From a virus, in IMG/VR virus record IMGVR_UViG_3300030108_002220, positions 1 to 26,768 of that record: a stretch of DNA of 26,768 nt, one strand, 5' to 3'. The translations under genes and the position numbers were made by a program. Under the pieces are notes generated by a model. The model was given only the letters and a program-made list of their open reading frames with translations. It did no database searches and was not told the origin of the DNA. Of this stretch, positions 1 through 15,710 are shown in pieces. Position 1 is the first letter of the stretch, and each line of letters begins with the position of its first letter.

Positions 1-3000
1 TGCACAATAACTATTGGGCCTAACACGGTAAGTAAGCTTTGGCTCATAGAAAACGCAACGAGTGGCTCACAGAATATTATTATTAGTCAAGGCTCTGGCG
101 CGAACATCACTATAGCTAATGGTCAGACCAAAGCGATTTATTCAGATGGCGCTGGATCTGGTGCTGCGATGGTGGATGCGTTTCAAGATCTGTCGATCCC
201 TGATCTATTCATTGACGATGACTTAACCTTTACCTCAGATAGCGCAGTCATCACATTTGGAGCTGATGGAGATACCACTCTAACTCACACCGATGGCACA
301 GGCCTTACTCTTAATGGAACTAATAAACTCACATTTGGTGATGTTGCTTCTTTTGTGCAGCAATCTAGTGATGGTGTTCTCAGGATAGATGGCGAAGCTA
401 CCATTGATTTAAATGCATCTACTGCTGTCACTGTCAGTAACGATCTAAAACTGGATAGTGATTCTGCTGTTCTAGGTTTTGGTGCAGACAATGATACGAC
501 ACTAACTCATACCGATGGATCTGGTCTGACGTTGAACTCTACGAACAAGATCATGTTCAACGATGCGAGTCAGTTTATCCAGGGATCAAGTGCAACGGTT
601 TTATCTCTTGGTGCAACTGATGAAATAGATCTGACTGCTACGTTGATTGATATCAACGGTAACGCAGATGTATCGGGTACGGTAACAGCAACAGGTACTT
701 CTGTATTCGCAAGCTTAGATATCTCAGGAGACATAGATGTAGACGGCACAACGAACCTCGATGTCGTAGACATTGACGGAGCCGTAGACATGGCCTCTAC
801 GCTTCAAGTAGATGGAGCTATTACTTCTTCGGCTGGAGCAACCATATCAACCGCTGATAATTCTACACAGCTTACTCTGAAATCTACGGATGCAGATGCA
901 AACTTAGGCCCAATACTTGATTTACTGCGAGATGGTGGTTCTCCTGCTGACAGTGATTTTATCGGGCAAGTGCGTTTCCAAGCTAAAGATGACGGAGGCA
1001 ATGTTCACGAGTATGGAAAAATACTAGGACAGATTGCGGATGTAACTGGTGGAACTGAAGATGGCATTTTAGCTATTAGAACAGTGCTTGCTGGGACTGA
1101 TACGAGGCGAATTGATTTAGGGGTCACTGAAACAGTGATAAACGAAGATCATGCAAACCTAGATTTTCGCGTAGAAGGAGATACAGCCACTCATATGATC
1201 TTTGTTGATGCTTCAACTGATACAGTGGGAATCAACATGAGCAATCCTACCTCTAGTGCCGCTTTCCAAGTCAGGACAGCAGCAAATAAAACGATAGCAT
1301 TTACAGATGCTATAAGCGAAACAGGAAATGTGATTACACTGCAGGGTGTAAATGACGATGGTACCTCAATGGTTGGCATTGGCCTTGCGGGTAGCAGCAT
1401 CGTATTGGAGAGAGGCCCAGTTACAATAAATGATAATAGTGGAGATTTCGATTTTCGGGTTGAAACAAATGCTAGATCTAATGGCTTTGTAATCGACGCA
1501 AGCACTGATAATGCTGGCTTCATGGTTGCTCCTGTAACCGATAGTTTGTCTTCTTTTAATGCGGTGCAGTTCGGTCAATCAGGTCTGATTCAATCTAGAC
1601 AAGCTGCTGTGTCTATGACGGTAGCTGATAATGTATATAGAGCAAGTTCTGGAAGCACTGGATACAAGGCTGTCGTAACTGGTGCATCTTCCATGATTTC
1701 TCAAAGTTCGGGCCAAATAGACTTCTACACTAACGCAAGTGCGAGTGCTGGTGCGGATGTCACGTTAGGCAAAATGATGACCATTTTTTCTAATGAAGTT
1801 CGCTTCAACGATGATGGTGCAGATAATGACTTCCGAATAGAGTCAACTGGATTCGCTAATCAATTTGTGGTGGACGCTGGAGATAACGCTATAGGAATTG
1901 GTCGTAATCCTAGTTCTATGGTGCTTGATCTTGAATCTGCTTCCAGCGGAACGCTCAACGCTTTTAGAATCCGTAACTCAAGCACAGCAGCGGCAGCGGC
2001 AGTTAAACAACATTTTTCTCTGAACAGGTCAGGTAGTGCTATTGATTTTGAATGTGCAAGTATAGTTGTCGGAAAAGAACAAGAATGGACAACAACTGCG
2101 TCCACTGTAGATGGCTTTATGGCTTTCCACACTATTCTAAATGAAACCGCCGCTGAAAAAATGCGTATTACTAGCGACGGACTCATTGGCATTGGTACTA
2201 CTTCCCCGACGAATGTTCTTGATACCGCATTCACAGCATCTGCACATACATCTGGGATCTCTGCAACTAACCTACAAACTGGAGGGTTTGGCTCAACTTT
2301 AGCATTCAACTCTACTAGATCTGATGATTCTAGTATAAAAACTGCTGCAAGAATTAGAACAGAGGGACATGAAAACTGGAGTTCGGATAATACCTGTTCT
2401 AGTAATTTAATTTTTGAAACAAGAAAAGATAACACACTAGCCGAAAGAATGAGGCTCGTTACGGATGGAAAATTCGGCGTGGGCACTACGACCCCACAGA
2501 CTCGTATCCATGCGATGACAAACAGCTCTACGCAAATTAGATGTAGTGGGGAGTCTAATAACAATAGAGCCGTTGCGATTGAATATGATGCCAGTGATGG
2601 CCCATTAGTAAGAGCTTTTAGCAGTGGAATAACAACTCTGAAATTCTTCGTCGATAATACGAGCTTGGCGGGAAAGTTCGACTCAAACGGTGACTTTTAC
2701 TCCAACGATGGAACGGTTCACAGCCTGTCAGATGTAAGAATAAAAACTGACATCAATGACCTAGAAGATGGCTTAGACATTGTTAAGCAACTCAAGCCGA
2801 AGACATTTAAATACACTGAAGACGCTGAGTTTTTTACAGAAGCTAAAAAAGACGAGATTAGTTACGGGTTTGTGGCTAACGAAGTGGAAAAGGTTGCTCC
2901 ACAATATACAGACATAGGCAAAGGAAAAATTGGCGGTGTAGAGGTGGATGACTTAAAAAGTTTATCCACAACGAAGATGATCCCGATGCTCGTAAAAGCG

Positions 3001-3069
3001 ATCCAAGAACAACAAGAAATAATCGAAACACTTCAAACAAAAGTGGCTGCACTAGAAGGGGGTAGTTAA
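1..3069 (+). CDS. Tail fibre/tail spike protein with C-terminal S74 chaperone, 5' partial
   Basis: The reading frame is open from base 1, so the ATG at 169 is internal and the true start lies left of the window; at least 1022 residues are encoded here. The N-terminal part holds two copies of a 74-residue beta-type repeat (about 220-441 and 442-663) with the shared core TTLTHTDG. The middle repeats DFRVE/DFRIE...VDAS and GIGT/GVGTTTP motifs typical of trimeric phage fibres. The C-terminus is an intramolecular chaperone (peptidase S74): SDVRIK at 2728-2745 supplies the Ser and Lys dyad that in this family cleaves the chaperone off after trimerisation. It is followed by the usual LKPKTFKY and GFVANEVEKVAP motifs and a C-terminal coiled coil. 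Role: receptor binding at the tail tip. The stop lies 2 bases before the next ATG. Confidence 0.9.
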   Translation, partial: CTITIGPNTVSKLWLIENATSGSQNIIISQGSGANITIANGQTKAIYSDGAGSGAAMVDAFQDLSIPDLFIDDDLTFTSDSAVITFGADGDTTLTHTDGTGLTLNGTNKLTFGDVASFVQQSSDGVLRIDGEATIDLNASTAVTVSNDLKLDSDSAVLGFGADNDTTLTHTDGSGLTLNSTNKIMFNDASQFIQGSSATVLSLGATDEIDLTATLIDINGNADVSGTVTATGTSVFASLDISGDIDVDGTTNLDVVDIDGAVDMASTLQVDGAITSSAGATISTADNSTQLTLKSTDADANLGPILDLLRDGGSPADSDFIGQVRFQAKDDGGNVHEYGKILGQIADVTGGTEDGILAIRTVLAGTDTRRIDLGVTETVINEDHANLDFRVEGDTATHMIFVDASTDTVGINMSNPTSSAAFQVRTAANKTIAFTDAISETGNVITLQGVNDDGTSMVGIGLAGSSIVLERGPVTINDNSGDFDFRVETNARSNGFVIDASTDNAGFMVAPVTDSLSSFNAVQFGQSGLIQSRQAAVSMTVADNVYRASSGSTGYKAVVTGASSMISQSSGQIDFYTNASASAGADVTLGKMMTIFSNEVRFNDDGADNDFRIESTGFANQFVVDAGDNAIGIGRNPSSMVLDLESASSGTLNAFRIRNSSTAAAAAVKQHFSLNRSGSAIDFECASIVVGKEQEWTTTASTVDGFMAFHTILNETAAEKMRITSDGLIGIGTTSPTNVLDTAFTASAHTSGISATNLQTGGFGSTLAFNSTRSDDSSIKTAARIRTEGHENWSSDNTCSSNLIFETRKDNTLAERMRLVTDGKFGVGTTTPQTRIHAMTNSSTQIRCSGESNNNRAVAIEYDASDGPLVRAFSSGITTLKFFVDNTSLAGKFDSNGDFYSNDGTVHSLSDVRIKTDINDLEDGLDIVKQLKPKTFKYTEDAEFFTEAKKDEISYGFVANEVEKVAPQYTDIGKGKIGGVEVDDLKSLSTTKMIPMLVKAIQEQQEIIETLQTKVAALEGGS
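220..663 (+). repeat. Two tandem 222-bp (74-residue) repeats in the tail fibre
   Basis: Copies start at 220 (DLTFTSDSAVITFGAD) and 442 (DLKLDSDSAVLGFGAD). They share TTLTHTDG(T/S)GLTLN, then TNK and a (V/Q)FVQ/FIQ(Q/G)SS block. They are protein-level repeats with diverged DNA, so this is an old duplication within the fibre shaft. Confidence 0.75.
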
Positions 3070-3071
3070 AA

Positions 3072-3395
3072 ATGGCAATCACATGGGAAGTGAGTCAATT
3101 AGATAGACAATTAAAATACGGCGATAAAGATGATGTCGTTACAACCGTACATTGGCAAGTAACCGATTCTGAGGTTGATGGAAAGAATACCTACAGTGGT
3201 TCCGCTTATGGTTCTGTCGGCTTGGCTGCGCCAGGTGATTCATTTACGCCTTATGCCGACATCACAGAAGAGCAAGCGATAGGTTGGGCCAAAGCTGCGC
3301 TTGGTGACGATCAGGTTGCAGACGCTGAGAAGTCGGTTGAAAATCAGATAGATCAACAAAAGAATCCAACGACAGGTGAAGGAGTACCTTGGTAA
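3072..3395 (+). CDS. Small phage protein with EGVPW C-terminus (copy 1)
   Basis: A 107-residue acidic soluble protein with no signal peptide or membrane segment. It is paralogous to the next gene: both start MAIT, then a Trp-x-Val/Ile strand, a V(H/Y)WQ(V/L) strand, a central F..Y.D..E....GW block, a helical V..QID segment, and the C-terminal GEGVPW/SEGVPW. I do not recognise a characterised family. Small proteins of this kind sit next to tail fibres in marine phages, so a fibre-associated or assembly role is possible, but this is inference from position. The start has a GGGGG-type ribosome binding site in the fibre's last codons. The stop TAA overlaps the next ATG (TAATG). Confidence 0.8.
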   Translation: MAITWEVSQLDRQLKYGDKDDVVTTVHWQVTDSEVDGKNTYSGSAYGSVGLAAPGDSFTPYADITEEQAIGWAKAALGDDQVADAEKSVENQIDQQKNPTTGEGVPW

Positions 3396-3397
3396 TG
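3378..3397 (+). promoter_or_regulatory. Junction 1: EGVPW codons containing the RBS and start of the next gene
   Basis: GAAGGAG encodes the Glu-Gly of EGVPW and is also the Shine-Dalgarno sequence for ATG 3395, which overlaps the stop codon (TAATG). The almost identical sequence recurs at 3740-3759, differing at one base, and a partial copy is at 3994-4008. Confidence 0.65.
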
Positions 3398-3757
3398 GCA
3401 ATAACAACAACTTGGAAAATCAACAACATGACTCATGTTGATGCGGATGGCGGTGTTATCATCGTGTACTGGCAACTTTTAGCGGCTAGTGATGCTGGTG
3501 GAGGTGAAACAGCTACCGAGGGCGGTAAGCAGCGTTTTGAGTACGATGCGTCAAGCAGTGACTTTATTAAGTACGACGATCTAAAAGAGAGCGATGTTTT
3601 AGGTTGGGTCTATGATGCCAACAAAGGGCCAGGTTCTGGTGGGCCAGCAGATGAGACAGCGAGTCAATACAAAGCTAGAATAGAATCTGAACGAACAGCC
3701 AAAGTTCAAGCACAAATTGATCGGGCTGCTTCACAATCAGAAGGAGTGCCTTGGTAA
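3395..3757 (+). CDS. Small phage protein with EGVPW C-terminus (copy 2)
   Basis: A 120-residue paralogue of the preceding gene. I start it at ATG 3395, which overlaps the upstream TAA and has AAGGAG 10 bases ahead; the in-frame TTG at 3389 has no such support. Conserved with copy 1: MAIT, VYWQL, the F.KYDDLKE..VLGWV block, the VQAQIDRA helix and the terminal SEGVPW. It has a Gly/Ser-rich loop in the middle that copy 1 lacks. Function is unknown. Its last codons again form the ribosome binding site of the next gene. Confidence 0.8.
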   Translation: MAITTTWKINNMTHVDADGGVIIVYWQLLAASDAGGGETATEGGKQRFEYDASSSDFIKYDDLKESDVLGWVYDANKGPGSGGPADETASQYKARIESERTAKVQAQIDRAASQSEGVPW

Positions 3758-3759
3758 TG
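3740..3759 (+). promoter_or_regulatory. Junction 2: EGVPW codons containing the RBS and start of the next gene
   Basis: Second copy of the stop/start module: GAAGGAG, then CCTTGG, then TAATG. It sets the start of the third gene at 3757 rather than the upstream in-frame TTG at 3751. Confidence 0.65.
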
Positions 3760-4029
3760 GAAGAGCAAAAAGAAGCAACAGTTGTTTTTAACGATAAGAA
3801 GATCCCAATGTCACAGTTGAGTTTTCAAACCCAGCGAAACATGCAAAGGCTAAGTCAGTTGCAGAATCTCATTCCTAATCTGCAAGAGCAGCTATCAGAG
3901 GCGCAAGTGTTGCTCAAAGACTACAGCTCTAAGGTAAACGCCGCATTAGAAGAGGTGGCATCGAGACAAAATGATGAAGTGGTGGAAACTTCTGAAGGTA
4001 AGCCTTGGGAAGAAGAGGCGACTCACTGA
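3757..4029 (+). CDS. Small helical protein, DUF6447-like, with EGKPW near C-terminus
   Basis: A 90-residue protein. The start is ATG 3757, overlapping the upstream TAA with AAGGAG 10 bases ahead. It opens with a short strand (ATVVFNDKKI), then MSQLSFQTQRNMQRLSQLQ and a long heptad helix through about residue 68, and ends SEGKPWEEEATH. The layout (short strand with N-D/G-K, then 'LS' helix, then long helix) resembles the small DUF6447 proteins of marine phages; I recall this from the family pattern and could not check it. It shares the EGxPW signature with its two upstream neighbours although the rest of the fold differs. A scaffold or chaperone-like role is possible but unproven. Confidence 0.75.
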   Translation: MEEQKEATVVFNDKKIPMSQLSFQTQRNMQRLSQLQNLIPNLQEQLSEAQVLLKDYSSKVNAALEEVASRQNDEVVETSEGKPWEEEATH

Positions 4030-4094
4030 TAGTCGGAGCAGTAATAGCTGTTCTGGTAGTGATGCCTTACTTGGCGTTGGCCTGGATGTGGTAG
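4005..4094 (+). CDS. Candidate 29-residue single-TM peptide (TTG start)
   Basis: A short frame from TTG 4005 to TAG 4092-4094 reads (M)GRRGDSLIVGAVIAVLVV, then ends MPYLALAWMW. Two arginines precede about 20 hydrophobic residues, a classic single-pass membrane peptide. GAAGGT lies 5 bases ahead of the TTG, in the same relative position as the EGxPW-encoded ribosome binding sites of the upstream genes, and the frame overlaps the end of the preceding gene. Without it, 4030-4103 would be the only non-coding gap in this tight cassette. The start codon is uncertain. A holin-accessory or other small membrane role is a guess from position. Confidence 0.4.
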   Translation: MGRRGDSLIVGAVIAVLVVMPYLALAWMW

Positions 4095-4103
4095 GAGAAA
4101 AAT

Positions 4104-4298
4104 ATGATGGATCTGATGGAGATACTCACACTTGCTACTACGGTAGTCACGGTTGCATCTGCGGTATGTGCGGCTACCCCTACCCCAAAAGACGATCAAT
4201 TTATGGGGCGATACGTCTATCCATTCCTAGAGGCTTTAGCTCTTAATGTTGGCAAAGCTAAACAAGCTGCTCCTAAAGAAGAAATTTTAGATGGATGA
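4104..4298 (+). CDS. Small membrane protein, hypothetical, in lysis region
   Basis: A 64-residue protein starting at ATG 4104 with AGGAG 5-6 bases ahead. Residues 5-24 (MEILTLATTVVTVASAVCAA) form one hydrophobic segment, followed by TPTPKDD, an amphipathic stretch (YPFLEALALNVGKAK) and a charged tail. Short proteins with this ATPTPKDD...LALN(I/V)GKAK pattern are, as I recall, common next to marine phage lysis genes, but they have no assigned function. It overlaps the next gene by 8 bases. It could be a holin-like protein or a membrane adaptor. Confidence 0.75.
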   Translation: MMDLMEILTLATTVVTVASAVCAATPTPKDDQFMGRYVYPFLEALALNVGKAKQAAPKEEILDG

Positions 4299-4479
4299 TG
4301 GGAAGAAAGCTCTGCAAGAAATAAACACTCATGAAAGAGAGTGTGCTTTGAGATATCAGCGTATCGAAGAAAGATTAGCAGATGGATCCAGGCGTTTTGA
4401 CAGACTAGAAAGAATGTTATGGGGCGTTATTGTTTTAATAATAGGGAGCCTTTTGGTTCCTCAATTTTTAGGGGTTTAG
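4291..4479 (+). CDS. Small coiled-coil protein with C-terminal TM (XhlA-like architecture)
   Basis: A 62-residue protein. Residues 1-42 are a charged helix with heptads (HERECALRYQRIEERLADGS), and residues 43-60 (LWGVIVLIIGSLLVPQFL) are a membrane segment. A C-terminal anchor with an N-terminal coiled coil is the layout of haemolysin XhlA-type lysis accessory proteins; this is an architectural resemblance, not a sequence match I could verify. It overlaps the upstream gene by 8 bases and is separated by 1 base from the next ATG. Confidence 0.7.
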   Translation: MDDGKKALQEINTHERECALRYQRIEERLADGSRRFDRLERMLWGVIVLIIGSLLVPQFLGV

Positions 4480-4480
4480 T

Positions 4481-4786
4481 ATGAGTGATGCAAACACTAT
4501 AAAAGTTCCGACATGGGCTTTGCCCATAGCAGCTGCAGCTTTATCTGGAGCTATCGCATGGGGATCTATGCAAGCAAGAGCAGAGGCTACAGATGCAGAG
4601 GTTCAAAGGATTGAGCAAGCTGTAAAAAAGACAGCGGAACAGGCAGTAGCCAACGGCCAACTGTCAGCGGTCAACCAGACGCAGATCAAGGCAGTGGTGG
4701 ACAGTCTGAGTCAGCAGCAGGAAACTCTGAAGGCGACGGACGAGAAGCTGGCTCAGTTGATCCAGATAATGCTACAGAAGCAGTAA
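4481..4786 (+). CDS. TM-anchored coiled-coil protein (spanin/holin-accessory-like), zero frame
   Basis: A 101-residue protein. Residues 10-29 are a hydrophobic segment (P.WALPIAAAALSGAIAWGS), followed by a long Ala/Gln/Lys coiled coil to the C-terminus. The N-terminal anchor plus coiled coil resembles inner-membrane spanins, but no partner lipoprotein is seen. Codons for residues 48-50 (GTA AAA AAG) contain an A AAA AAG heptamer at 4624-4630. From there a -1 frame is open to 5067, so ribosomes may make both this short form and a 195-residue fusion. Bases 4630-4786 are visibly richer in GCG, ACG, CTG and CAG codons than nearby genes, as expected if two frames are read. Confidence 0.75.
   Translation: MSDANTIKVPTWALPIAAAALSGAIAWGSMQARAEATDAEVQRIEQAVKKTAEQAVANGQLSAVNQTQIKAVVDSLSQQQETLKATDEKLAQLIQIMLQKQ
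4624..4630 (+). promoter_or_regulatory. Candidate programmed -1 frameshift site A AAA AAG
   Basis: The heptamer is in the correct zero-frame register (GTA|AAA|AAG). An AAAGGA at 4605-4610 lies 13 bases upstream, resembling the stimulatory Shine-Dalgarno of dnaX. Downstream, GACAG (4630-4634) can pair with CTGTC (4661-4665), or GCC (4649-4651) with GGC (4655-4657) inside CAGT/ACTG. The -1 frame is closed by TGA at 4612-4614 just upstream and open for 450 bases after it. Confidence 0.6.
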
Positions 4787-5067
4787 GACTAGATTACGAT
4801 CCCGAAAACCCTAATCTGTTCTGTGACCTAAGAGAGTGGAATAAACTCAAGCTCGTAAACCCACCGGCAAAACGTCACGAGGTCGCAAAGGATTGGTTGA
4901 AGTTCAACTACCGACAGTGTGGTTATGGGGCAATGATTTACGTGAGAAACTCTATGCCAAGAGTGTTAGGGACGGCGCATCAAGTTGATGTAGATGTGCT
5001 GACATGGGAACTAGTTGCTCCGCAAGCTGAAAGAACTCAAGCACTGAAGAAGAAACGAAGACTATGA
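4630..5067 (+). CDS. Hypothetical protein in -1 frame, probably expressed by frameshift from the 4481 gene
   Basis: The frame is open from 4615 to TGA 5065-5067 and has no ATG, GTG or TTG before 4897. The region 4783-5064 reads as a credible protein (VRLDYDPENPNLFCDLREW, then a basic NPPAKRHEVAKDWLKF segment, RQCGYGAMIYVRN, and a KKKRRL C-terminus), and without it there would be a 277-base hole in a cassette that otherwise has no gaps. The stop overlaps the next start (ATGA), as at other junctions here. Entry by -1 slippage at 4624-4630 would give 50 residues of the membrane protein plus 145 from this frame, joined by a Gly/Ser/Asp/Gln-rich linker (about 51-100). Initiation at a rare codon near 4783 is the alternative. 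Function unknown. Confidence 0.65.
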   Translation, partial: DSGTGSSQRPTVSGQPDADQGSGGQSESAAGNSEGDGREAGSVDPDNATEAVRLDYDPENPNLFCDLREWNKLKLVNPPAKRHEVAKDWLKFNYRQCGYGAMIYVRNSMPRVLGTAHQVDVDVLTWELVAPQAERTQALKKKRRL

Positions 5068-5324
5068 CGCTGATGATATTTGTTTTAGTTCTTTTGACAC
5101 CAGGAGGTAGGCCAACAGGCACTGAACTATACTTCCAAGAATTAACAAGTTGCCTAGAATATCGAGATGCTCTTGTTCATCAAAGCGTCCATACTCACAA
5201 CTGGTTACGCAGTAAGACCAACAAGTTTGATGGGTATTGCGAGGTAAGATTAATTCCTTCGGCAGAAGCTGGAAAAGGTAAGTATATATTTAGAGATCCT
5301 GTCAGGAAGAAAGAAGATGAGTGA
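5064..5324 (+). CDS. Small exported protein, hypothetical
   Basis: An 86-residue protein whose start overlaps the upstream stop (ATGA). Residues 1-12 (MTLMIFVLVLLT) followed by PGGRPTG look like a short signal peptide or a membrane anchor. The remainder is soluble with two cysteines (Cys30 and Cys58) that could form a periplasmic disulfide, and it ends in a charged tail. No lipobox cysteine is present, so it is not an outer-membrane spanin of Rz1 type. I do not recognise a family. It overlaps the next gene by 8 bases. Confidence 0.7.
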   Translation: MTLMIFVLVLLTPGGRPTGTELYFQELTSCLEYRDALVHQSVHTHNWLRSKTNKFDGYCEVRLIPSAEAGKGKYIFRDPVRKKEDE

Positions 5325-5541
5325 AATACCACCGTTCCCAAACAGTGTGAACGCTGTGCAGCCTGCGCCCAAGCATCACATACAAAAGATTGATATGGAG
5401 CGGATGCAAGGCAAAGAAATAAATGCCAAGCAGGAAGTTATTACCACCATATACGATTCCAAGGTGTATACCTACAAAGGGGGTCAACTAAGCTATACAA
5501 CCCCTAAAGTTACTGGTCAGCACATTCTGGTAACAGTATGA
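5317..5541 (+). CDS. Hypothetical phage protein
   Basis: A 74-residue soluble protein. The start overlaps the previous gene by 8 bases and is preceded by AGGAAG. The first 20 residues are Pro/Asn-rich (PPFPNSVNAVQPAPKH); the rest is a short helix and beta-rich C-terminus (EVITTIYDSKVYTYKGGQLS). I recognise no family. It overlaps the next start by 4 bases (ATGA), so it is probably coupled with the membrane genes on both sides. Confidence 0.7.
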   Translation: MSEIPPFPNSVNAVQPAPKHHIQKIDMERMQGKEINAKQEVITTIYDSKVYTYKGGQLSYTTPKVTGQHILVTV

Positions 5542-5858
5542 CTCCTAAAAAGCTAGAACCTAAATCCCGTTACGCAGAATATGACGCAGATGGTGATGGG
5601 GTAGTAAGTGATCAAGAAATATCGCGTCATCAGGAGATGTTACAACTTGAACTTCAAGAAGAAAAAGCAGACTCGCAAAGAAGAATGGCCTGGGTTGCTA
5701 TTGGGAGTATGTGCGTTTTCGCTGTTTTGCCTGTTATTCCTTTTGTCCCATCTGATCGACTTGATACGTTAGCAAGCATTAGCGATATGTTGTTTCTTAG
5801 CCAAGCCTCCATCGTTGGACTATACTTTGGAGCAACAGCATACATGGCGAAAAAATGA
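5538..5858 (+). CDS. Two-TM protein with N-terminal EF-hand loop, holin-like
   Basis: A 106-residue protein. Residues 16-27 (DADGDGVVSDQE) are a textbook 12-residue EF-hand loop with acidic ligands at positions 1, 3, 5 and 12 and Gly at 6, flanked by a helix on the C-side. Two membrane segments follow, about residues 50-70 and 84-104, with a short loop containing PSDRLD. A calcium-binding head on a small two-TM protein next to the 3TM holin suggests a holin or holin regulator; that function is inference. The stop overlaps the next start (ATGA). Confidence 0.75.
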   Translation: MTPKKLEPKSRYAEYDADGDGVVSDQEISRHQEMLQLELQEEKADSQRRMAWVAIGSMCVFAVLPVIPFVPSDRLDTLASISDMLFLSQASIVGLYFGATAYMAKK

Positions 5859-6232
5859 GTATTCTTGGATCTTTGATAGAACCCGCAACAAAGCTTCTCG
5901 ATAAAGTTATTGAGGACAAAGATCAGAAAAATGCGCTGGCCCATGAGATTGCCACTATGGCCGAAAAACATGCCGTCGAATTAGCCAAGGGCCAGATCGA
6001 AATCAACAAGCTTGACGCAAAAGGAAACTGGTTCCAGTCCAGTTGGAGGCCTTTAGCTGGATATACTTGCGTCCTGGGGCTGATGGTTAATTTTCTTATA
6101 GCTCCCATTGCAGCAGGCTTTGGAGTAATTATTCCTCAAGCTGATGCTGGCACTATGATGCCTCTGTTGCTTGGCATGCTAGGTCTGGGCGGTGCTCGTT
6201 CATTCGAGCGTGTTAAAGGCGTAGGCAAATAA
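5855..6232 (+). CDS. Holin, GTA 3TM type
   Basis: A 125-residue protein. An N-terminal amphipathic helix (residues 1-55, rich in Lys/Glu) is followed by SSWRPLAGY and hydrophobic segments at about 70-92 and 99-114, and it ends ARSFERVKGVGK. The (S)WRPL motif before the membrane segments and the Gly-rich C-terminal end with RSFE match the 'holin of 3TMs' family (PF11351) known from the Rhodobacter gene transfer agent and many alphaproteobacterial phages. Its role is to permeabilise the inner membrane so that the signal-less lysozyme encoded 1 base downstream reaches the cell wall. Confidence 0.85.
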   Translation: MSILGSLIEPATKLLDKVIEDKDQKNALAHEIATMAEKHAVELAKGQIEINKLDAKGNWFQSSWRPLAGYTCVLGLMVNFLIAPIAAGFGVIIPQADAGTMMPLLLGMLGLGGARSFERVKGVGK

Positions 6233-6233
6233 T

Positions 6234-6656
6234 ATGACAAAACTAATTGATATGTTAAAGCTGCATGAAGGTGTGCGAACCCATGCCTATCAATGCAGCG
6301 CAGACAAATGGACAATTGGCGTGGGCCGGAACATTGATGAAGATGGTGGGCTTGGTCTTACTGAAGAAGAGATTAATGTTTTATTAATTAACGATATAAA
6401 AAGAGTTCAAGATGAATTGGGCGCTAGTTATTTTTGGTTTAGAGAATTAGATGAGGTTAGGAGGGATGCAATGACTGATATCTGTTTTAACCTTGGATTA
6501 TCTCGTTTGAGAGGTTTTGTAAAAGCAATTACTGCCATGTCTAGAAAACAATGGGATATTGCTGCAGATGAATTTATGGACAGTCGCTGGAGCAAGCAAG
6601 TTGGGCAACGTGCTATAACAATCACTGAAATGATAAGAACCGGAGAATATCAATGA
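6234..6656 (+). CDS. Endolysin, T4-type lysozyme (GH24)
   Basis: A 140-residue muramidase that cleaves the beta-1,4 bond between N-acetylmuramic acid and N-acetylglucosamine. The start is ATG 6234. The active-site region is HEGVRTHAYQCSADKWTIGVGRN: Glu12 aligns with T4 lysozyme Glu11 and Thr27 with Thr26. Cys21 replaces Asp20; Cys at this place occurs in other members of the family, so activity is plausible. The C-terminal half has the family's DICFNLGLSRLRGF and RW..Q.G.R segments. There is no signal peptide or SAR domain, so export depends on the holin just upstream. The stop overlaps the next start (ATGA). Confidence 0.92.
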   Translation: MTKLIDMLKLHEGVRTHAYQCSADKWTIGVGRNIDEDGGLGLTEEEINVLLINDIKRVQDELGASYFWFRELDEVRRDAMTDICFNLGLSRLRGFVKAITAMSRKQWDIAADEFMDSRWSKQVGQRAITITEMIRTGEYQ

Positions 6657-7717
6657 GCCTGTATCCTGGTGATCTTTCTTCTCAAATAAGAGCAGCTGAA
6701 TCTGGCCTTGAGCCTTATCCTGGCGGCTTTGGCGGTAACTTCGGTAGCGGATTCGGAGGTGGCTTTGGTGGTGGTTTCCAGCCTATGCCTTCTCCAGGTA
6801 AAGGAAGACCATCTCCTCCACCAATGCAATCTCCAGGTAAAGGCAGGCCTCAGCCATCTTTTGGTTATGGTCAGACCACCTTTAATCCATACGGATTTAA
6901 CAGAGGGTTTGGCGGTGGTTTTGGTGGTGGTTTTGGCGGAGGATTCGGTGGTGGATTCTCACCTGGATATGGTGGAATGTTTGGTGGATTTGGAGTGCCT
7001 CAGCCTAGACCAATGCCAGCACCTGGAAGAAAAGGAGGAGGCAGTCCTTCAAAAGGAGGAAGACCAAGACCAACCCCAAGGCAAGATTTAGACATATCAA
7101 ATAGGCCTCCCCCGTTTGAGGTTCCAGGTGGTGGGCGGTTTGATGAGTTTGCTCCTTATGACGAGCCAATGCCATTTAATCCTGAGCCAGCTACGCCGAG
7201 TCCTAATGTTGCGGATCAAGGATTGTTGGATGCATTTGCAGCAAACCCAGCAAGTAAGCAATTTGGCTTGACGGCAACTTACGATCCAACAACCAATGAA
7301 TATGTGACAGATCTGTCAGGAGCTGGTTTTGCTGGTCAAACCAAGAGACAGACCCCAGCAGAGTTTGCTGCAGGGCTTGGTATGACTGGTCAACCAGCAG
7401 AACCAGTAGGTTTTTCGGCGCAGCCTGGGCCTATGGGTGGGAATGTTACTGATCAGCTTGAGGCGCTTGGATTTGAAAGAGAAATGAGGGTTGGTAGAGA
7501 TGGTACTGGTATGCCCATAATGATACCGACTGGGAATATTGTGCCGATGACAAGTGCAGCAGATCTTAATCGAGCTCAACAAGCTGCAGCTGCAGCTGCA
7601 ATAAACTCTCCTTTCGGCGCTCCATTACAAAGACCAGTCAATAGAGGGGCAATGATGGGTGGTGTTGCTGGTATGCCTGGAGGTAAGGCCAGGGGCGGAA
7701 GAACAAGGCTTTACTAA
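6653..7717 (+). CDS. Gly/Pro-rich virion-associated protein, hypothetical
   Basis: A 354-residue low-complexity protein. Two GGF/GGGF repeat blocks (about residues 23-42 and 84-112) surround two SPGKGRP motifs separated by PPPM. A basic Pro/Gly linker (KGGRPRPTPRQD) and a less repetitive acidic half (about 150-320) follow, ending in PGGKARGGRTRLY. I recognise no enzymatic domain. The position between the endolysin and the Gp10-like tail gene, and the tail-like low complexity, suggest a structural or assembly protein. Glycine repeats of this type also occur in phage adhesins. The start overlaps the lysozyme stop, and the stop is directly followed by the next ATG. Confidence 0.75.
   Translation: MSLYPGDLSSQIRAAESGLEPYPGGFGGNFGSGFGGGFGGGFQPMPSPGKGRPSPPPMQSPGKGRPQPSFGYGQTTFNPYGFNRGFGGGFGGGFGGGFGGGFSPGYGGMFGGFGVPQPRPMPAPGRKGGGSPSKGGRPRPTPRQDLDISNRPPPFEVPGGGRFDEFAPYDEPMPFNPEPATPSPNVADQGLLDAFAANPASKQFGLTATYDPTTNEYVTDLSGAGFAGQTKRQTPAEFAAGLGMTGQPAEPVGFSAQPGPMGGNVTDQLEALGFEREMRVGRDGTGMPIMIPTGNIVPMTSAADLNRAQQAAAAAAINSPFGAPLQRPVNRGAMMGGVAGMPGGKARGGRTRLY
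6718..6990 (+). repeat. GGTGGxTTT-type repeats encoding GGGF tracts
   Basis: Two blocks, about 6718-6780 and 6902-6990, of near-identical 12-base units encoding Gly-Gly-Gly-Phe. Such simple repeats are prone to length change by slippage. Confidence 0.7.
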
Positions 7718-9565
7718 ATGCCGCTAAGTAAGATTAGTTTTGCTCCAGGGGTTAACAAAGAAGGCACAGAGTATACAGCTGATGCTGGATGGTTTGACTC
7801 TGACAAGATTAGATTTAGAAAGGGCAGGCCAGAAAAAATAGGAGGCTGGAGGAAATACAACCAAGCCGCTTTTGTTGGTATATGTAGATCTATACACGAC
7901 TGGTCATCGCTTGAATCAATTAAGTACTTGGGTGTCGGAACAAACCTAAAGTTTTATATTGCCGAGGGCAGTGGATATAACGATGTCACCCCGATCAGAT
8001 CTACAACATCTGCAGGCGATGTTACCTTCTCTGCTTCAAACGGATCGAGCACAATAACAGTTACAGATACTTCTCATGGGGCTGTCGTAAATGACTTTGT
8101 CACATTTAGCGGAGCAGCCACGCTGGGAGGGAATGTTACTGCAGCTGTATTAAATCAAGAGTATCAAATAGCAAGCGTGCCAACGACCAATACCTTTACG
8201 ATAGAGGCCAAAGATACGAGCGGCAGCACAGTAACAGCAAACAGCTCAGATACAGGAAATGGTGGATCCTCTGTTGTCGGAACATATCAGATAAACACAG
8301 GGCTAAATGCTTTTGTACAAGGGACTGGATGGGGTGCTGGATCCTGGGGCTTTGGTACTTTTGGAAGCTCTAGCTCTGTAGCTGCATCAGGTCAATTGAG
8401 ATTGTTTAGCCAGGATAATTTTGGTGAGGATCTTATATTTAATATCCGAGGTGGCGGGATATTTTACTGGGACGAATCTGGAGGCACTGGAGCAAGAGCT
8501 GTTAATATCACCACTCTTACCGGATCAAATCAACCAACCGTTGCTTTACAGGTTTTAGTTTCTGATGAAGACCGACATGTGATTGCCTTTGGGTCTAATC
8601 CGATAGGATCCTCTGATATAGACCCTTTGTTGGTTAGATTTTCAGATCAAGAGAATGCTGGAGACTGGACTCCAACAGCAACCAACAGCGCTGGTGGTGT
8701 CCGTATAAACTCAGGATCTCAGATAATCGGGGCAGTCCAAACAAGACAAGAGATACTTATCTGGACAGACGCAAGCTTACATTCGATGAGATTTGTTGGT
8801 GCTCCGTTTATATTTAACTTCAGCACGTTGAGTACCGATGTATCAATGATATCTCCTAACGCAGCTGTAAACGCCAGGGGCGTTGTTTACTTCATGGATA
8901 GGGGTAACTTCTATGTTTACAACGGATCTGTACAGCCGCTTCCCTGTTCCGTTAAAGACTTTGTTTTTTCTAATTTAAATAAAGATCAGTCGTTCAAGGT
9001 CTTTGCAGCAGAAAACAATGATTACAATGAAGTAATATGGTTTTACCCTATTGGAGAGGGGAATACAGAGATAACCAATTATGTATCTTACAACTATGAA
9101 GAAGGTTTGTGGGCAGTCGGAACATTAGGCAGAGGGGCGTGGATAGCTGGAGCAACTAGACAGTATCCCATTGCATCCACTGCAATTGATGGTGGTGATA
9201 ACTTCTTGTTTGAGCATGAAGTTGGTTTTGATGATGATGGCTCAGCAATGACTGCTTTTATAGAATCTGGAGATCTAGAGATAGGTGAGGGCGAACACTA
9301 TATGTTTGTGAACAAAATAATACCTGACTTTACTTTTACCGGAAATCAAACTGAAGCGTCTGCAAATATAATTATGAAGGGTAGCGATTTTCCGTTGGAG
9401 ACTCCGACTACGTTATCTAGTTCTACTGTGACACCATCGACTAAACAGTCATTTATAAGAAATAGATCCAGGCATTCTGTGGTTAGGATAGAAAGCGATG
9501 GGTCTGGCTATAAATGGAGATTGGGGGATCTAAGGTTTGATATGCGCCAGGATGGCAGAAGATAA
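7718..9565 (+). CDS. P22 Gp10-like tail accessory / DNA-stabilising protein
   Basis: A 615-residue protein. The N-terminus ISFAPGVNKEGTEY...GWFD.DKIRFRKGRPEKIGGW is the signature found across marine podophages for the Gp10-type tail accessory protein that plugs the head-tail channel; I place it there from this pattern. A Thr/Ser-rich insert (about residues 95-200, TSHGAVVNDFVTFSG) looks like a small beta domain. The remainder is beta-rich with a W.PTATNSAGG region, RQEILIWTD and Y.EVIWFYP, consistent with a beta-propeller-like fold. It starts immediately after the upstream TAA, and its stop overlaps the next ATG. Confidence 0.6.
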   Translation: MPLSKISFAPGVNKEGTEYTADAGWFDSDKIRFRKGRPEKIGGWRKYNQAAFVGICRSIHDWSSLESIKYLGVGTNLKFYIAEGSGYNDVTPIRSTTSAGDVTFSASNGSSTITVTDTSHGAVVNDFVTFSGAATLGGNVTAAVLNQEYQIASVPTTNTFTIEAKDTSGSTVTANSSDTGNGGSSVVGTYQINTGLNAFVQGTGWGAGSWGFGTFGSSSSVAASGQLRLFSQDNFGEDLIFNIRGGGIFYWDESGGTGARAVNITTLTGSNQPTVALQVLVSDEDRHVIAFGSNPIGSSDIDPLLVRFSDQENAGDWTPTATNSAGGVRINSGSQIIGAVQTRQEILIWTDASLHSMRFVGAPFIFNFSTLSTDVSMISPNAAVNARGVVYFMDRGNFYVYNGSVQPLPCSVKDFVFSNLNKDQSFKVFAAENNDYNEVIWFYPIGEGNTEITNYVSYNYEEGLWAVGTLGRGAWIAGATRQYPIASTAIDGGDNFLFEHEVGFDDDGSAMTAFIESGDLEIGEGEHYMFVNKIIPDFTFTGNQTEASANIIMKGSDFPLETPTTLSSSTVTPSTKQSFIRNRSRHSVVRIESDGSGYKWRLGDLRFDMRQDGRR

Positions 9566-12505: not shown

Positions 12506-13014
12506 AGCCAAGCATAGAGTTAGCGTCAGTTAAACCCTTTAAGGATCTTATAAAAGAGCCAAGAGTTAGTGCTAAGTCGGAAAAAAGAGAATCAACTCAC
12601 ACGATTGCTTTGGTTCCTACTAATTATGTTTACACATTATGGCCTGATGTTAGAGATCACTTAGGCAAGGCTGTTGCTAGATCTAAAGGCAGATGGAATA
12701 TGGAGATGTTGTTTGCATCCATATCACAAAACCAACAGCAGTTATGGGTTGCTTTTGATGAGGACAAAAACATCGACGGTGTAGGAACCACTGAGTTTGT
12801 AGATTACCCAAACAAAAGAATGTTAGCGGTTCAGTTTATGGGCGGAAGGAGATTTAACGACTGGGTTTGGGACATCATAGAAAAATTTGATTCATGGGCA
12901 AAAGATAATCATTGCTCTGGTATTGAAGCAACCGCTAGAAATGGATTCTGGAAATGGCTTGAACAAGATGGTTTCGAGCAATCATATACAGTATATGAAA
13001 AGAGGTTTGATTAA
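12502..13014 (+). CDS. GNAT-fold protein, T7 gp13-like internal virion protein
   Basis: A 170-residue protein. From about residue 75 it follows the GNAT acetyltransferase strand-helix order: LWVAFDEDKNIDGVGTTEF (strands 2-4), MLAVQFMGGRRFNDWVWDII (strand plus helix), then a helix-strand pair ending WLEQDGFEQSYTVYEKRF, the usual GNAT C-terminal strand. The acetyl-CoA binding Q/RxxGxG/A signature is degenerate here (MGGRRFN), so catalysis is doubtful. Phage GNAT-like proteins of this length stand in the position of T7 gp13, at the head of the internal virion cluster, as here. It overlaps both neighbours by 1-4 bases. Confidence 0.65.
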   Translation: MKPSIELASVKPFKDLIKEPRVSAKSEKRESTHTIALVPTNYVYTLWPDVRDHLGKAVARSKGRWNMEMLFASISQNQQQLWVAFDEDKNIDGVGTTEFVDYPNKRMLAVQFMGGRRFNDWVWDIIEKFDSWAKDNHCSGIEATARNGFWKWLEQDGFEQSYTVYEKRFD

Positions 13015-15710
13015 TGGGCAAAGGAAGCAGTAAGGCTCCTAGTGGGCCACAAGAGGTAGTACAGACAACCAGTAACTTACCTGAATATGCCAAACCATAT
13101 TTCGAGGAGTTGCTTGGTCGTACTATGTACGAGAGCACAACGCCATACGAAGCGTTCCCTGGTCAAAGACTTGCAGATTTTACCCCTTATGAGCAAATGG
13201 GCATGCAAGGCATGTACGACATGGCTATGGCTGGATCGCCAATACAGACAGGCATGGCATCAGACATTGCTGCTCAGATCGGTTATCAGCCAAGTAATAT
13301 GGGAATGGAGATTGCCAGTAGATTCCAGCCGGAATCACTGCCAACTGACTTTGCTGCTGGTCAAAGGGATGTTGGATACACACCAACAGCATTCGATTCT
13401 GGATATACAGCTGGAGATTTAGGCCCTGGCTACACAGCAAGAGAGCTTACATCTAATCTTACGCCAGTTGATTTTGATGCTGGATACACAGCAAGAGCCG
13501 ATCAGACATTTGATCCTTTAGGCACAGATATAGCATCCAGGTTTACAACAGAGAGAGCTGCATCGACTTATGTTCCTGGTGATATATCACAAGGTTACCA
13601 GGCCGGAACTTTTACTCCAGATTATCAAGCAACTACATTTGATCCAGGCTATGAGGCAGCTGTCAGGGACTCTGGGTTTAGGATGGATGACCTCGTTAGT
13701 GGTTATACAGCCACTGACTTTGACCCTGGATATCAAGCTGGGACACTAGATCAAGGCTATCGAGGTAGGGACATTGCTTCTGAGTATCAAGCAGGCACTT
13801 TTGATCCTGGCTATGTTGCTAGAGAGTTAGGTCAGGATTACACGGCTAGAGACTTAGAGTCAGAATACACTGGGGATCTTGGAGCTCTTCCCACATTTGA
13901 AGCTGGGACTATAGCTGATGCAGAAACTCTAGAAAAATATATGAATCCATATCAGCAGTTGGTGACTGATATAGAGAAAAGAGAAGCAGAAAGAGCTTCA
14001 GATATACAAGCAGCTGAGATATCTCAACAAGCAGCTCAAGCAGGGGGTTTGGGTGGATATCGAGAAGCTATATTACAGGCAGAAAGAGAAAGAAACCTGG
14101 GGCAGCAGCTTGCAGATATCCAGGCTAGAGGCGGTCAGGCTGCTTATGAGAGCGCATTAAAGACATTTGAGGCTGATAGAGCTGCAAGGTTGCAAGAAGC
14201 TGAGATCGGTCTTACAAGCGCTCAAGCTCAAGATCAAGCAAAACAAGAAGCAGAAAGACTTAAGCAGTCTGCATTCCAGACTACAGAGCAGGCAAGGCAG
14301 CAACAGCAAAGGATGGCAATTGAATCCTTTGAGGTTGGAGAAAGAGCGAAGCAACAAGCCGCTGAGTTAGGGTTGACAGCTAGTCAGCAAGAAGAAGCGG
14401 CAAGACAAGCTCAAGAGAAATACAGGTTGCAAGCTATAGAGCAATCAGAAGCAACCAGGCAAGCAGAGCAACAGTTTACCACGCAGGCTTTTGAGGCTGG
14501 TCAAAGAGCTCAGCAAGAAGCCGCAAGGTTAGGATTGTCTGCCCAAGAGCAGGCCGATGCATCCAGAAGGGCTGAAGAACAGTTCCGACAAAGCGCATAT
14601 GAGTCATCTGTGCAATCAAGATCTCTAACAGAGCAGTTTGCCCAAGGTGCATTTGAGTTTGGCGAACAAGCCAAACAGAGAGCAGCAGAGCTAGGATTAA
14701 ATGCTCAGCAGCAAACAGAAGCTGCAAGGCAAGCAGAACAGACGTTTAAACAATCTGCTTTTGAAATCAATGAAGCAAACAAAAGAGCACAGCAAGAGCT
14801 AGAAAACGCTGTCGTTCAGATCAGAGAGAATGCTTTACAAGAAGCAGCTCGATTAAATCTGTCGGCAACACAGCAAAACAATGCAGCAAATCAAGCTGAA
14901 GAAGAGTTTAGACAATCTGCTGAAGCTCAAAACATCAAACGTAGAGCCCAGGAAGCGCAGTTAGAACAGTCTGCTTTCCAGTTTGGAGAGCAAGCAAGAC
15001 AAACTGCTGCAGAGCTGGGACTAAGCGAACAGCAAGCACAACAAAGAGCTAACGAAGCTGCAGAGCAATTTAGGCAGTCAGCATTTGAAACAACTGAAAG
15101 AGCCAGACAGCAAGAAGATCAACTCAAGAATCAGGCATTTGAGATAGGTGAAAGAGCTAAACAAGAAGCTGCTAGGCTTGGATTAAACGCACAGCAGCAA
15201 GAGGATGCTTCCAGAAGAGCCGCTGAAGAGTTCAGACAAAGCCAGTTCTCAGAGAATGAAAGGCTTAGGTTGTCTGCACAGCAAGAAAACAGGGCTGCTC
15301 AAGAGTTTAATATTAGATCTGCAGAAACTGCAGCTAGGTTGGGTCTGGCTGGTCTGGGTGCTGACCAGGCTACTAGGGCTCAACAGTTAGATGCAGCTAG
15401 ATTGCTTGGCACTTTGGGCGGTCAAGAACAAGACATGGCATTCGAGAGATTGCGAAACTTGCAGGCAGCTGGTCAGATACAAAGAGAGCTGCAGCAAAGA
15501 GGATTAGATATTGGATATCAGGATTTCTTAAGACAACAGGCGTTCCCGAAAGAGCAGCTTAGTTACTTTAGTAACATATTAAGAGGTTTGCCAATATCGC
15601 CTGGATCTACGCAAGCATCCTACGGTGCTGCAACAAGTCCTTATCAACAAGCTTTAGGGGCTGGAATCGGTGGCGTTGGACTTTATAGAGCATTAGCTGG
15701 CGGTACTTAA
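13014..15710 (+). CDS. Large repeat-built internal virion (ejection) protein
   Basis: An 898-residue protein with three parts. Residues 1-120: start MGKGSSKAPSGPQEV, then LPEYAKPYFEELLGRT. Residues 121-292: a tandem nonapeptide array, consensus GYxA(G/R)xFDP. Residues 385-816: eight consecutive 54-residue units, consensus FExGERAKQEAARLGLNAQQ in the first half and EEFRQSAFE in the second, with no gaps. The last unit is degenerate. The C-terminus (LDIGYQDFLRQQAFPKEQLS, then a Gly-rich end) is a motif set seen in ocean podophage virion proteins. The place and order match T7 gp14, but it is far longer than T7's 196 residues. It probably forms a long helical part of the DNA ejection conduit. The start overlaps the previous TAA. 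Confidence 0.7.
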   Translation: MGKGSSKAPSGPQEVVQTTSNLPEYAKPYFEELLGRTMYESTTPYEAFPGQRLADFTPYEQMGMQGMYDMAMAGSPIQTGMASDIAAQIGYQPSNMGMEIASRFQPESLPTDFAAGQRDVGYTPTAFDSGYTAGDLGPGYTARELTSNLTPVDFDAGYTARADQTFDPLGTDIASRFTTERAASTYVPGDISQGYQAGTFTPDYQATTFDPGYEAAVRDSGFRMDDLVSGYTATDFDPGYQAGTLDQGYRGRDIASEYQAGTFDPGYVARELGQDYTARDLESEYTGDLGALPTFEAGTIADAETLEKYMNPYQQLVTDIEKREAERASDIQAAEISQQAAQAGGLGGYREAILQAERERNLGQQLADIQARGGQAAYESALKTFEADRAARLQEAEIGLTSAQAQDQAKQEAERLKQSAFQTTEQARQQQQRMAIESFEVGERAKQQAAELGLTASQQEEAARQAQEKYRLQAIEQSEATRQAEQQFTTQAFEAGQRAQQEAARLGLSAQEQADASRRAEEQFRQSAYESSVQSRSLTEQFAQGAFEFGEQAKQRAAELGLNAQQQTEAARQAEQTFKQSAFEINEANKRAQQELENAVVQIRENALQEAARLNLSATQQNNAANQAEEEFRQSAEAQNIKRRAQEAQLEQSAFQFGEQARQTAAELGLSEQQAQQRANEAAEQFRQSAFETTERARQQEDQLKNQAFEIGERAKQEAARLGLNAQQQEDASRRAAEEFRQSQFSENERLRLSAQQENRAAQEFNIRSAETAARLGLAGLGADQATRAQQLDAARLLGTLGGQEQDMAFERLRNLQAAGQIQRELQQRGLDIGYQDFLRQQAFPKEQLSYFSNILRGLPISPGSTQASYGAATSPYQQALGAGIGGVGLYRALAGGT
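13374..13889 (+). repeat. 27-bp / 9-residue tandem repeat array (GYxA motif)
   Basis: The first run is 13374-13508 (5 units: GYTPTAFDS, GYTAGDLGP, GYTARELTS, NLTPVDFDA, GYTARADQT). After four poorly matching units and one extra residue, a second run of 11 in-register units starts at 13593 (GYQAGTFTP, DYQATTFDP, GYEAAVRDS and so on to about 13889). The aromatic residue at position 2 and Phe/Leu/Ile at position 7 are the most constant. Confidence 0.8.
14166..15461 (+). repeat. 162-bp / 54-residue tandem repeat array, eight units
   Basis: Units start at 14166, 14328, 14490, 14652, 14814, 14976, 15138 and 15300. Each begins with an FExGERAKQ-like helix, continues (A/E)A(E/R)LGL(N/S/T)AQQ and, at unit position 32, FRQSAFE. 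Spacing is exactly 54 residues in all units; units 5 and 8 are the most diverged. The DNA is also similar between units but not identical. Confidence 0.85.

Follow-up and report, generated by a model that had tools for sequence, protein, structure and literature searches.

The locus considered here raises a simple question: how is a reading frame that looks protein-coding, but has no start codon of its own, translated? The window, that is, the whole stretch of DNA that was analysed, is the IMG/VR virus record IMGVR_UViG_3300030108_002220 (26,768 nucleotides), and the parts of the locus, together with the holin and lysozyme genes, lie on its plus strand. The original prediction was that the frame is reached by a programmed -1 frameshift within the preceding gene.

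The upstream gene is a zero-frame ORF of 101 amino acids (4481-4786, with a TAA stop at 4784-4786) that has homologues in all of the relatives; its product contains a hydrophobic export segment at about residues 9-30, followed by a predicted coiled-coil region. A TGA at 4612-4614 sets the upstream limit of the -1 frame, which is open from 4615 to 5064, and the TGA that closes it (5065-5067) shares an ATGA with the ATG at 5064 of the next gene (5064-5324), which encodes a small protein with a hydrophobic N-terminus. Just inside the upstream limit is a slippery heptamer, A AAA AAG (4624-4630), which is read in the zero frame as part of the codons GTA AAA AAG (4622-4630). Beyond it, the -1 frame encodes a hydrophilic linker rich in Ser, Gly, Asp and Glu in a stretch that is dual-coding as judged from stop count and composition (4630-4782), and then the conserved hidden domain (4783-5067; 94 amino acids plus the TGA), with four predicted helices, a basic C-terminal tail, and two cysteines that are invariant in the alignment, Cys 14 (4822-4824) and Cys 46 (4918-4920). 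No ATG, GTG or TTG occurs in this frame before residue 95, which is well within the conserved part. The predicted short product has 101 residues and the predicted fusion 50 + 145 = 195 residues. All of these coordinates (the ORF, the heptamer, the TGA at 4612, the TAA at 4784, the ATGA junction and the two product lengths) had been given in the original prediction, and all held.

The gene is located between a tail fibre gene and the lysis genes, namely, a holin of the 3TM type (5855-6232; PF11351, E 8.5e-17; phrog_3427) and a phage lysozyme or endolysin (6234-6656; PF00959, E 2.3e-15; phrog_7). A virion structural protein of phrog_3287 follows at 7718, and the records that match it carry the annotation stabilisation protein. 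Several other features of the window may be recorded here. The product of the small gene just upstream (4291-4479) begins with a charged helical stretch and ends in a membrane segment, the reverse of the zero-frame protein layout, and weakly matches a PHROG named hemolysin (E 0.25). The next two genes after the hidden frame (starting at 5064 and 5317, within 5064-5541) are, judging from match positions, apparently in swapped order in many relatives. The product of 5538-5858, just before the holin, is a small membrane protein whose DADGDGVVSDQE loop resembles an EF-hand (weak Pfam EF-hand match). Finally, an 898-amino-acid ORF (13014-15710) contains many short repeats of the F-D-x-G-Y-x-A type and then a long helical region rich in Gln, Ala and Glu.

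Relatives were gathered by scans of IMG/VR contigs and one scan of genome contigs, which yielded about 270 loci. After removal of identical copies, 170 loci had the complete arrangement, and these form the basis of the counts. Without exception, these 170 distinct relatives encode the hidden domain in the -1 frame relative to the same upstream gene, and an in-frame fusion of the two parts was not found in any of the relatives. Note that the 170 loci share descent, and counts taken over them, including the expected number of stop codons given below, do not represent independent events. The group is one of uncultured phages, and a tblastn search of 50,697 sequenced phage records found none carrying the pair. 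A match to Pseudomonas phage Ep020 was dismissed as chance. Two loci with this gene (L113 and L114) come from contigs assigned to the metagenome bin of a member of the Sphingobacteriales and could represent a prophage, host sequence or a mis-binned phage. We found no earlier description of this gene in the literature searched, although most subscription journals were outside the scope of that search.

The element common to the putative shift sites is an A-site lysine codon (AAA or AAG) preceded by A, i.e. A_AAR in register, which is present in all 170 complete loci. Six motifs contain it: AAAAAAG (50 loci), GGGAAAA (44), GGGAAAG (32), GGTAAAG (21), GGCAAAG (12) and AAAAAAA (11). Four of the six are complete heptamers, and a perfect XXXYYYZ heptamer is found in 137 of the 170 relatives. 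The remaining 33, with GGTAAAG or GGCAAAG, have only A_AAG and no matching P-site triplet, the first P-site base matching in both frames; the original claim of a perfect heptamer is refined to this extent. In E. coli, the most shift-prone tetramer is A_AAG, and the best heptamers are C_CCA_AAG, G_GGA_AAG and A_AAA_AAG (Sharma et al. 2014, PMC4066793). The site occupies three positions in the zero-frame protein, approximately 52-53, 47-48 and 40-43 codons from its end. When the motif labels are placed on a tree of the zero-frame protein, at least 15 changes are needed, and we therefore conclude that one shifty motif has repeatedly been exchanged for another, and that no locus with the domain has lost it. 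It should be noted that this tree is based on few columns, which include those of the site itself.

The variety of motifs bears on one alternative, in which RNA polymerase rather than the ribosome slips on a run of A. In favour of such transcriptional slippage, the window contains a run of six A (4624-4629). However, 109 of the 170 relatives use GGGAAAR, GGTAAAG or GGCAAAG, in which the A runs are short, and the codon register is strict in all relatives, so that we regard this explanation as highly improbable. The sequence around the site was also considered. In the group of relatives designated TGK, the codons ACG GGA are fixed in 76 of 76 loci, though both are fourfold degenerate; at other conserved residues of this group the codons vary (mean 1.26 bits), and one of ten is equally fixed. 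The downstream RNA folds only slightly better than shuffled sequence, and no conserved stimulatory hairpin was found across the relatives, with a possible one in the GGCAAAG group only.

If both frames of the overlap are translated, stop codons must be avoided in the -1 frame. To obtain an expectation, the overlap was randomly recoded by synonymous codons with the codon use of the window. For the window alone, such shuffling of the post-slip codons gives 3.8 expected -1 stops, whereas none is seen (P(none) = 0.005); for the 170 overlaps together, about 671 stops are expected (3.9 per locus) and 0 are observed. Synonymous variation in the overlap, the reduction of which had been proposed beforehand as a check, is indeed reduced within the window's group, where synonymous divergence is 0.654 ahead of the site and only 0.485 within the overlap. 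Another proposed sign of dual coding did not hold up. The overlap is richer in G+C than its neighbours in the window, as had been claimed (54.8% versus 45.6% before and 45.9% after), but the mean values over the relatives are 53.3% upstream, 50.9% in the overlap and 47.7% downstream; the enrichment is not general, and we have dropped it as evidence.

Given the kinship among the loci, a better test than the figure of 671 stops is offered by a natural control, namely, a sister group of 18 loci (within L242-L274, e.g. L252, L257 and L269) that contain a zero-frame homologue, 60-66% identical to the search query, and no hidden domain. Over the same 58 codons, these loci have 4-9 stops in the -1 frame, about as many as expected from synonymous shuffling or more, and no slippery heptamer. 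Their synonymous divergence does not drop either (0.706 versus 0.664). Because the controls lack all of these properties together, the slippery site and the open frame can be said to come and go with the domain. By comparison of relatives, it is shown that the two frames are obligatorily linked and that selection acts on the site. The hidden domain was not found elsewhere in three of the control phage records (28-46 kb). In most control loci, there is a directly following small ATG-started gene whose product has a hydrophobic N-terminus and several Cys.

A sequencing or assembly error, or a single gene broken recently, could produce a similar picture, since one base change could in principle merge both frames. 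However, the arrangement is common to 170 distinct loci from many contigs. Conservation of the zero-frame protein stays strong beyond the site (overlap pN/pS 0.027), and this protein also occurs in loci that lack the domain. This possibility is practically ruled out.

A more serious alternative is that the domain is translated alone, either because ribosomes initiate internally or because they re-initiate at an unusual start codon near the zero-frame stop. In support of this, the conserved domain begins near the zero-frame stop, and some loci have an ATT or ATC ahead of it. On the other hand, none of the 170 loci has an ATG, GTG or TTG of its own near the domain; in L124, a TTG and a GTG do occur, but they are 88 and 73 codons upstream and thus ahead of its slippery site. 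In addition, none of seven start-like codons precedes the domain in 68 loci, including the window. Independent initiation would leave unexplained the open -1 overlap, the conserved shifty site and their joint absence in the controls, and the separate product would have no export signal. We consider it very unlikely.

Programmed -1 ribosomal frameshifting remains by far the best explanation and is very likely correct, although the support is comparative and there is no protein, ribosome-profiling or reporter evidence. In other words, on all comparative criteria tested, and leaving aside the stimulatory element, this is a programmed -1 frameshift gene whose products are unobserved. The original prediction is supported in this respect, and none of the three findings that would have refuted it was met in the relatives: the domain does not have its own start codon in any relative with this arrangement, sequencing error is excluded by the breadth of the 170 distinct loci compared, and the site is not lost in the presence of the domain, only replaced by other shifty motifs.

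The proposed mechanism is as follows. Most ribosomes would read 4481-4786 and produce the 101-residue protein, a coiled-coil protein that is exported or anchored in the membrane. Some would slip back by one base at 4624-4630, with tRNA-Lys on the AAG of A AAA AAG, and produce the 195-residue fusion. This fusion would share residues 1-50 with the short protein, and with them the export segment, but would continue into the linker and the four-helix cysteine domain in place of the rest of the coiled-coil region. The shift would translate the start-less domain and at the same time supply its missing export segment, so that the domain would be delivered to the envelope in fixed proportion to its short partner. 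By analogy with lambda G/GT (PMC5009743), the short protein would be expected to predominate over the fusion at a constant ratio, and the two may co-assemble. Note that the occurrence of the shift, its rate, export, a disulfide and a role in lysis are inferred only, and that the efficiency may be low.

The hydropathy peak of the zero-frame protein starts at residue 9, inside the shared first 50 residues. An A-X-A motif follows the hydrophobic segment in all 22 distinct variants, and for this reason the segment could be a cleavable signal; to the extent that the features of the sequence allow a judgement, a membrane anchor and a cleavable signal peptide are both possible. The original description as a membrane protein is accordingly plausible, but not the only reading. 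Several zero-frame members have weak Rz-like PHROG matches (E 0.001 to 0.01), with no significant family match. With the Rz-type i-spanins (PMC6139136), the protein shares, as far as its sequence layout shows, an N-terminal hydrophobic segment, a helical coiled-coil region and a position in the lysis region; it differs in the frameshifted second form, in the A-X-A motif of a signal that is perhaps cleaved, and in the lack of an identified o-spanin partner. When positions 2900-7000 of the window were scanned for a relaxed lipobox, no o-spanin candidate emerged, the single match being an unconvincing LTSC in the ORF at 5064-5324, away from the hydrophobic stretch. Because no partner was found, we do not file the short protein as a spanin.

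The linker encoded by the -1 frame of the overlap consists of 18% Ser, 14% Gly and only 9% hydrophobic residues, and it is presumably flexible. Purifying selection acts on the 94-residue domain beyond it, with a pN/pS of 0.30 overall and 0.13 within the group of the window. A first AlphaFold model from 15 sequences was poor (pLDDT 51) and was replaced after the alignment was widened to 82 rows; the AlphaFold2 model from the 82 sequences predicts four helices with a mean pLDDT of 83.6. No relative of the domain was found in Pfam, PHROGs or PDB sequences, and a PDB fold search with the model gave nothing convincing (best Z 5.3, inside the usual background for helical proteins). A Foldseek search against predicted viral proteins matched three small uncharacterised phage proteins of 90-103 amino acids with probability 1.00 and TM of about 0.6 (BFVD entries A0A6J5QTX3, A0A6J5PMF2 and A0A6J5Q980).

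Sequence comparison also identified stand-alone genes for the domain: one in MW202825.1 (L275; tblastn E 2e-3) and others in the IMG/VR loci L276-L278. Two IMG/VR relatives of the former gave profile E values of 9e-11 and 5e-10. These proteins and the BFVD entries have the same domain by sequence or by predicted fold. They are encoded by separate genes of unknown function, and the sequenced ones have their own hydrophobic signal-like N-terminus, whereas the domain here has neither start nor signal. The two cysteines are invariant across the fused and stand-alone forms, while the zero-frame protein is cysteine-free in 162 of 170 loci. In very distant relatives, then, the domain does have a gene to itself. 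This does not refute frameshifting in the loci considered here, because the signal of the stand-alone form explains why a fusion is needed where the domain has none. Since the stand-alone relatives have a signal-like N-terminus and directly precede a holin-like gene and a lysozyme, we infer that the domain is exported, and that what the shift most likely does is attach it to the shared N-terminal export segment. As a separate observation, the GTG start of the stand-alone gene overlaps the stop of the previous gene (ATG GCA AAG TGA) in MW202825.1 (L275:3898-4207) and also in L276-L278. At this junction, the G GCA AAG motif already met among the fused loci directly precedes the stop, and a -1 shift could possibly join both proteins there too.

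Two known systems are useful for comparison. Lambda G/GT (PMC5009743) likewise has a small gene with a -1 shift close to its end, a minor fusion that shares the N-terminus and a second part without a start. The heptamer of lambda itself is GGGAAAG. This motif, which is among the most efficient heptamers (PMC4066793), is used by 32 of the relatives here. The gene described here differs in that it is not beside the tape measure gene, its short product has a hydrophobic export segment, and its second part is an exported-type cysteine domain that has stand-alone relatives and lies by the lysis genes. A tail assembly chaperone pair would directly precede the tape measure gene, and by position this is not a tail assembly chaperone gene. 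The frameshifts of IS1- and IS3-family transposases (PMC4066793) use the same set of motifs, A_AAA_AAG, A_AAA_AAA and, in some members, the A_AAG tetramer alone; the present locus differs in that it is not a mobile element, its products are of the envelope type, and no conserved stimulatory structure was detected.

As for the function, disruption of the envelope or its control beside the holin and lysozyme is the leading candidate, but it is a guess from position that we would not ourselves quite bet on. In the relatives, a holin was matched downstream in 73 of 141 loci and a lysozyme in 61 of 137. An alternative that we rate slightly below even is that the frameshift is real and the products are not lysis proteins, but, for example, envelope proteins for superinfection exclusion or virion assembly factors. 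In its favour, the lysis role is only positional and the holin was matched in only about half of the loci; genes for head-to-tail stabilisation proteins are also in the neighbourhood; and no o-spanin candidate was found in the part of the window that was scanned. Against it, the stand-alone relatives, too, are directly followed by a holin-like gene and a lysozyme, and there are the weak Rz-like spanin matches of several zero-frame members. A bolder version of the lysis reading is that the gene belongs to a widespread phage envelope system, in which frameshifting, instead of a separate gene, sets the ratio of the short exported coiled-coil protein to the form with the exported helical cysteine domain, as a G/GT-like stoichiometry device for envelope disruption or its timing. 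Such a system would have arisen from a secreted domain, once encoded on its own, that was deprived of its start and signal and became dependent on the export segment of the upstream gene. This remains speculative, and we think it rather more apt to fail than to hold.

The case is stronger than could be known when the prediction was made: frameshifting is very likely, with the biological role open. Tail assembly chaperone genes account for the overwhelming majority of annotated phage frameshifts (2,397 of the 2,476 in the SEA-PHAGES set; PMC10885494), and the present gene would be an independent and widely shared use of frameshifting in a protein, inferred to be exported, next to lysis genes. 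It also contains a conserved domain that is missed by ordinary gene callers, because it has no start codon. In addition, the comparative record is unusually complete, with three site positions, six motifs and domain-less relatives as a control, and for this reason the family is a good test bed for the origin, movement and persistence of shifty sites, including those that consist of the A_AAG tetramer only.
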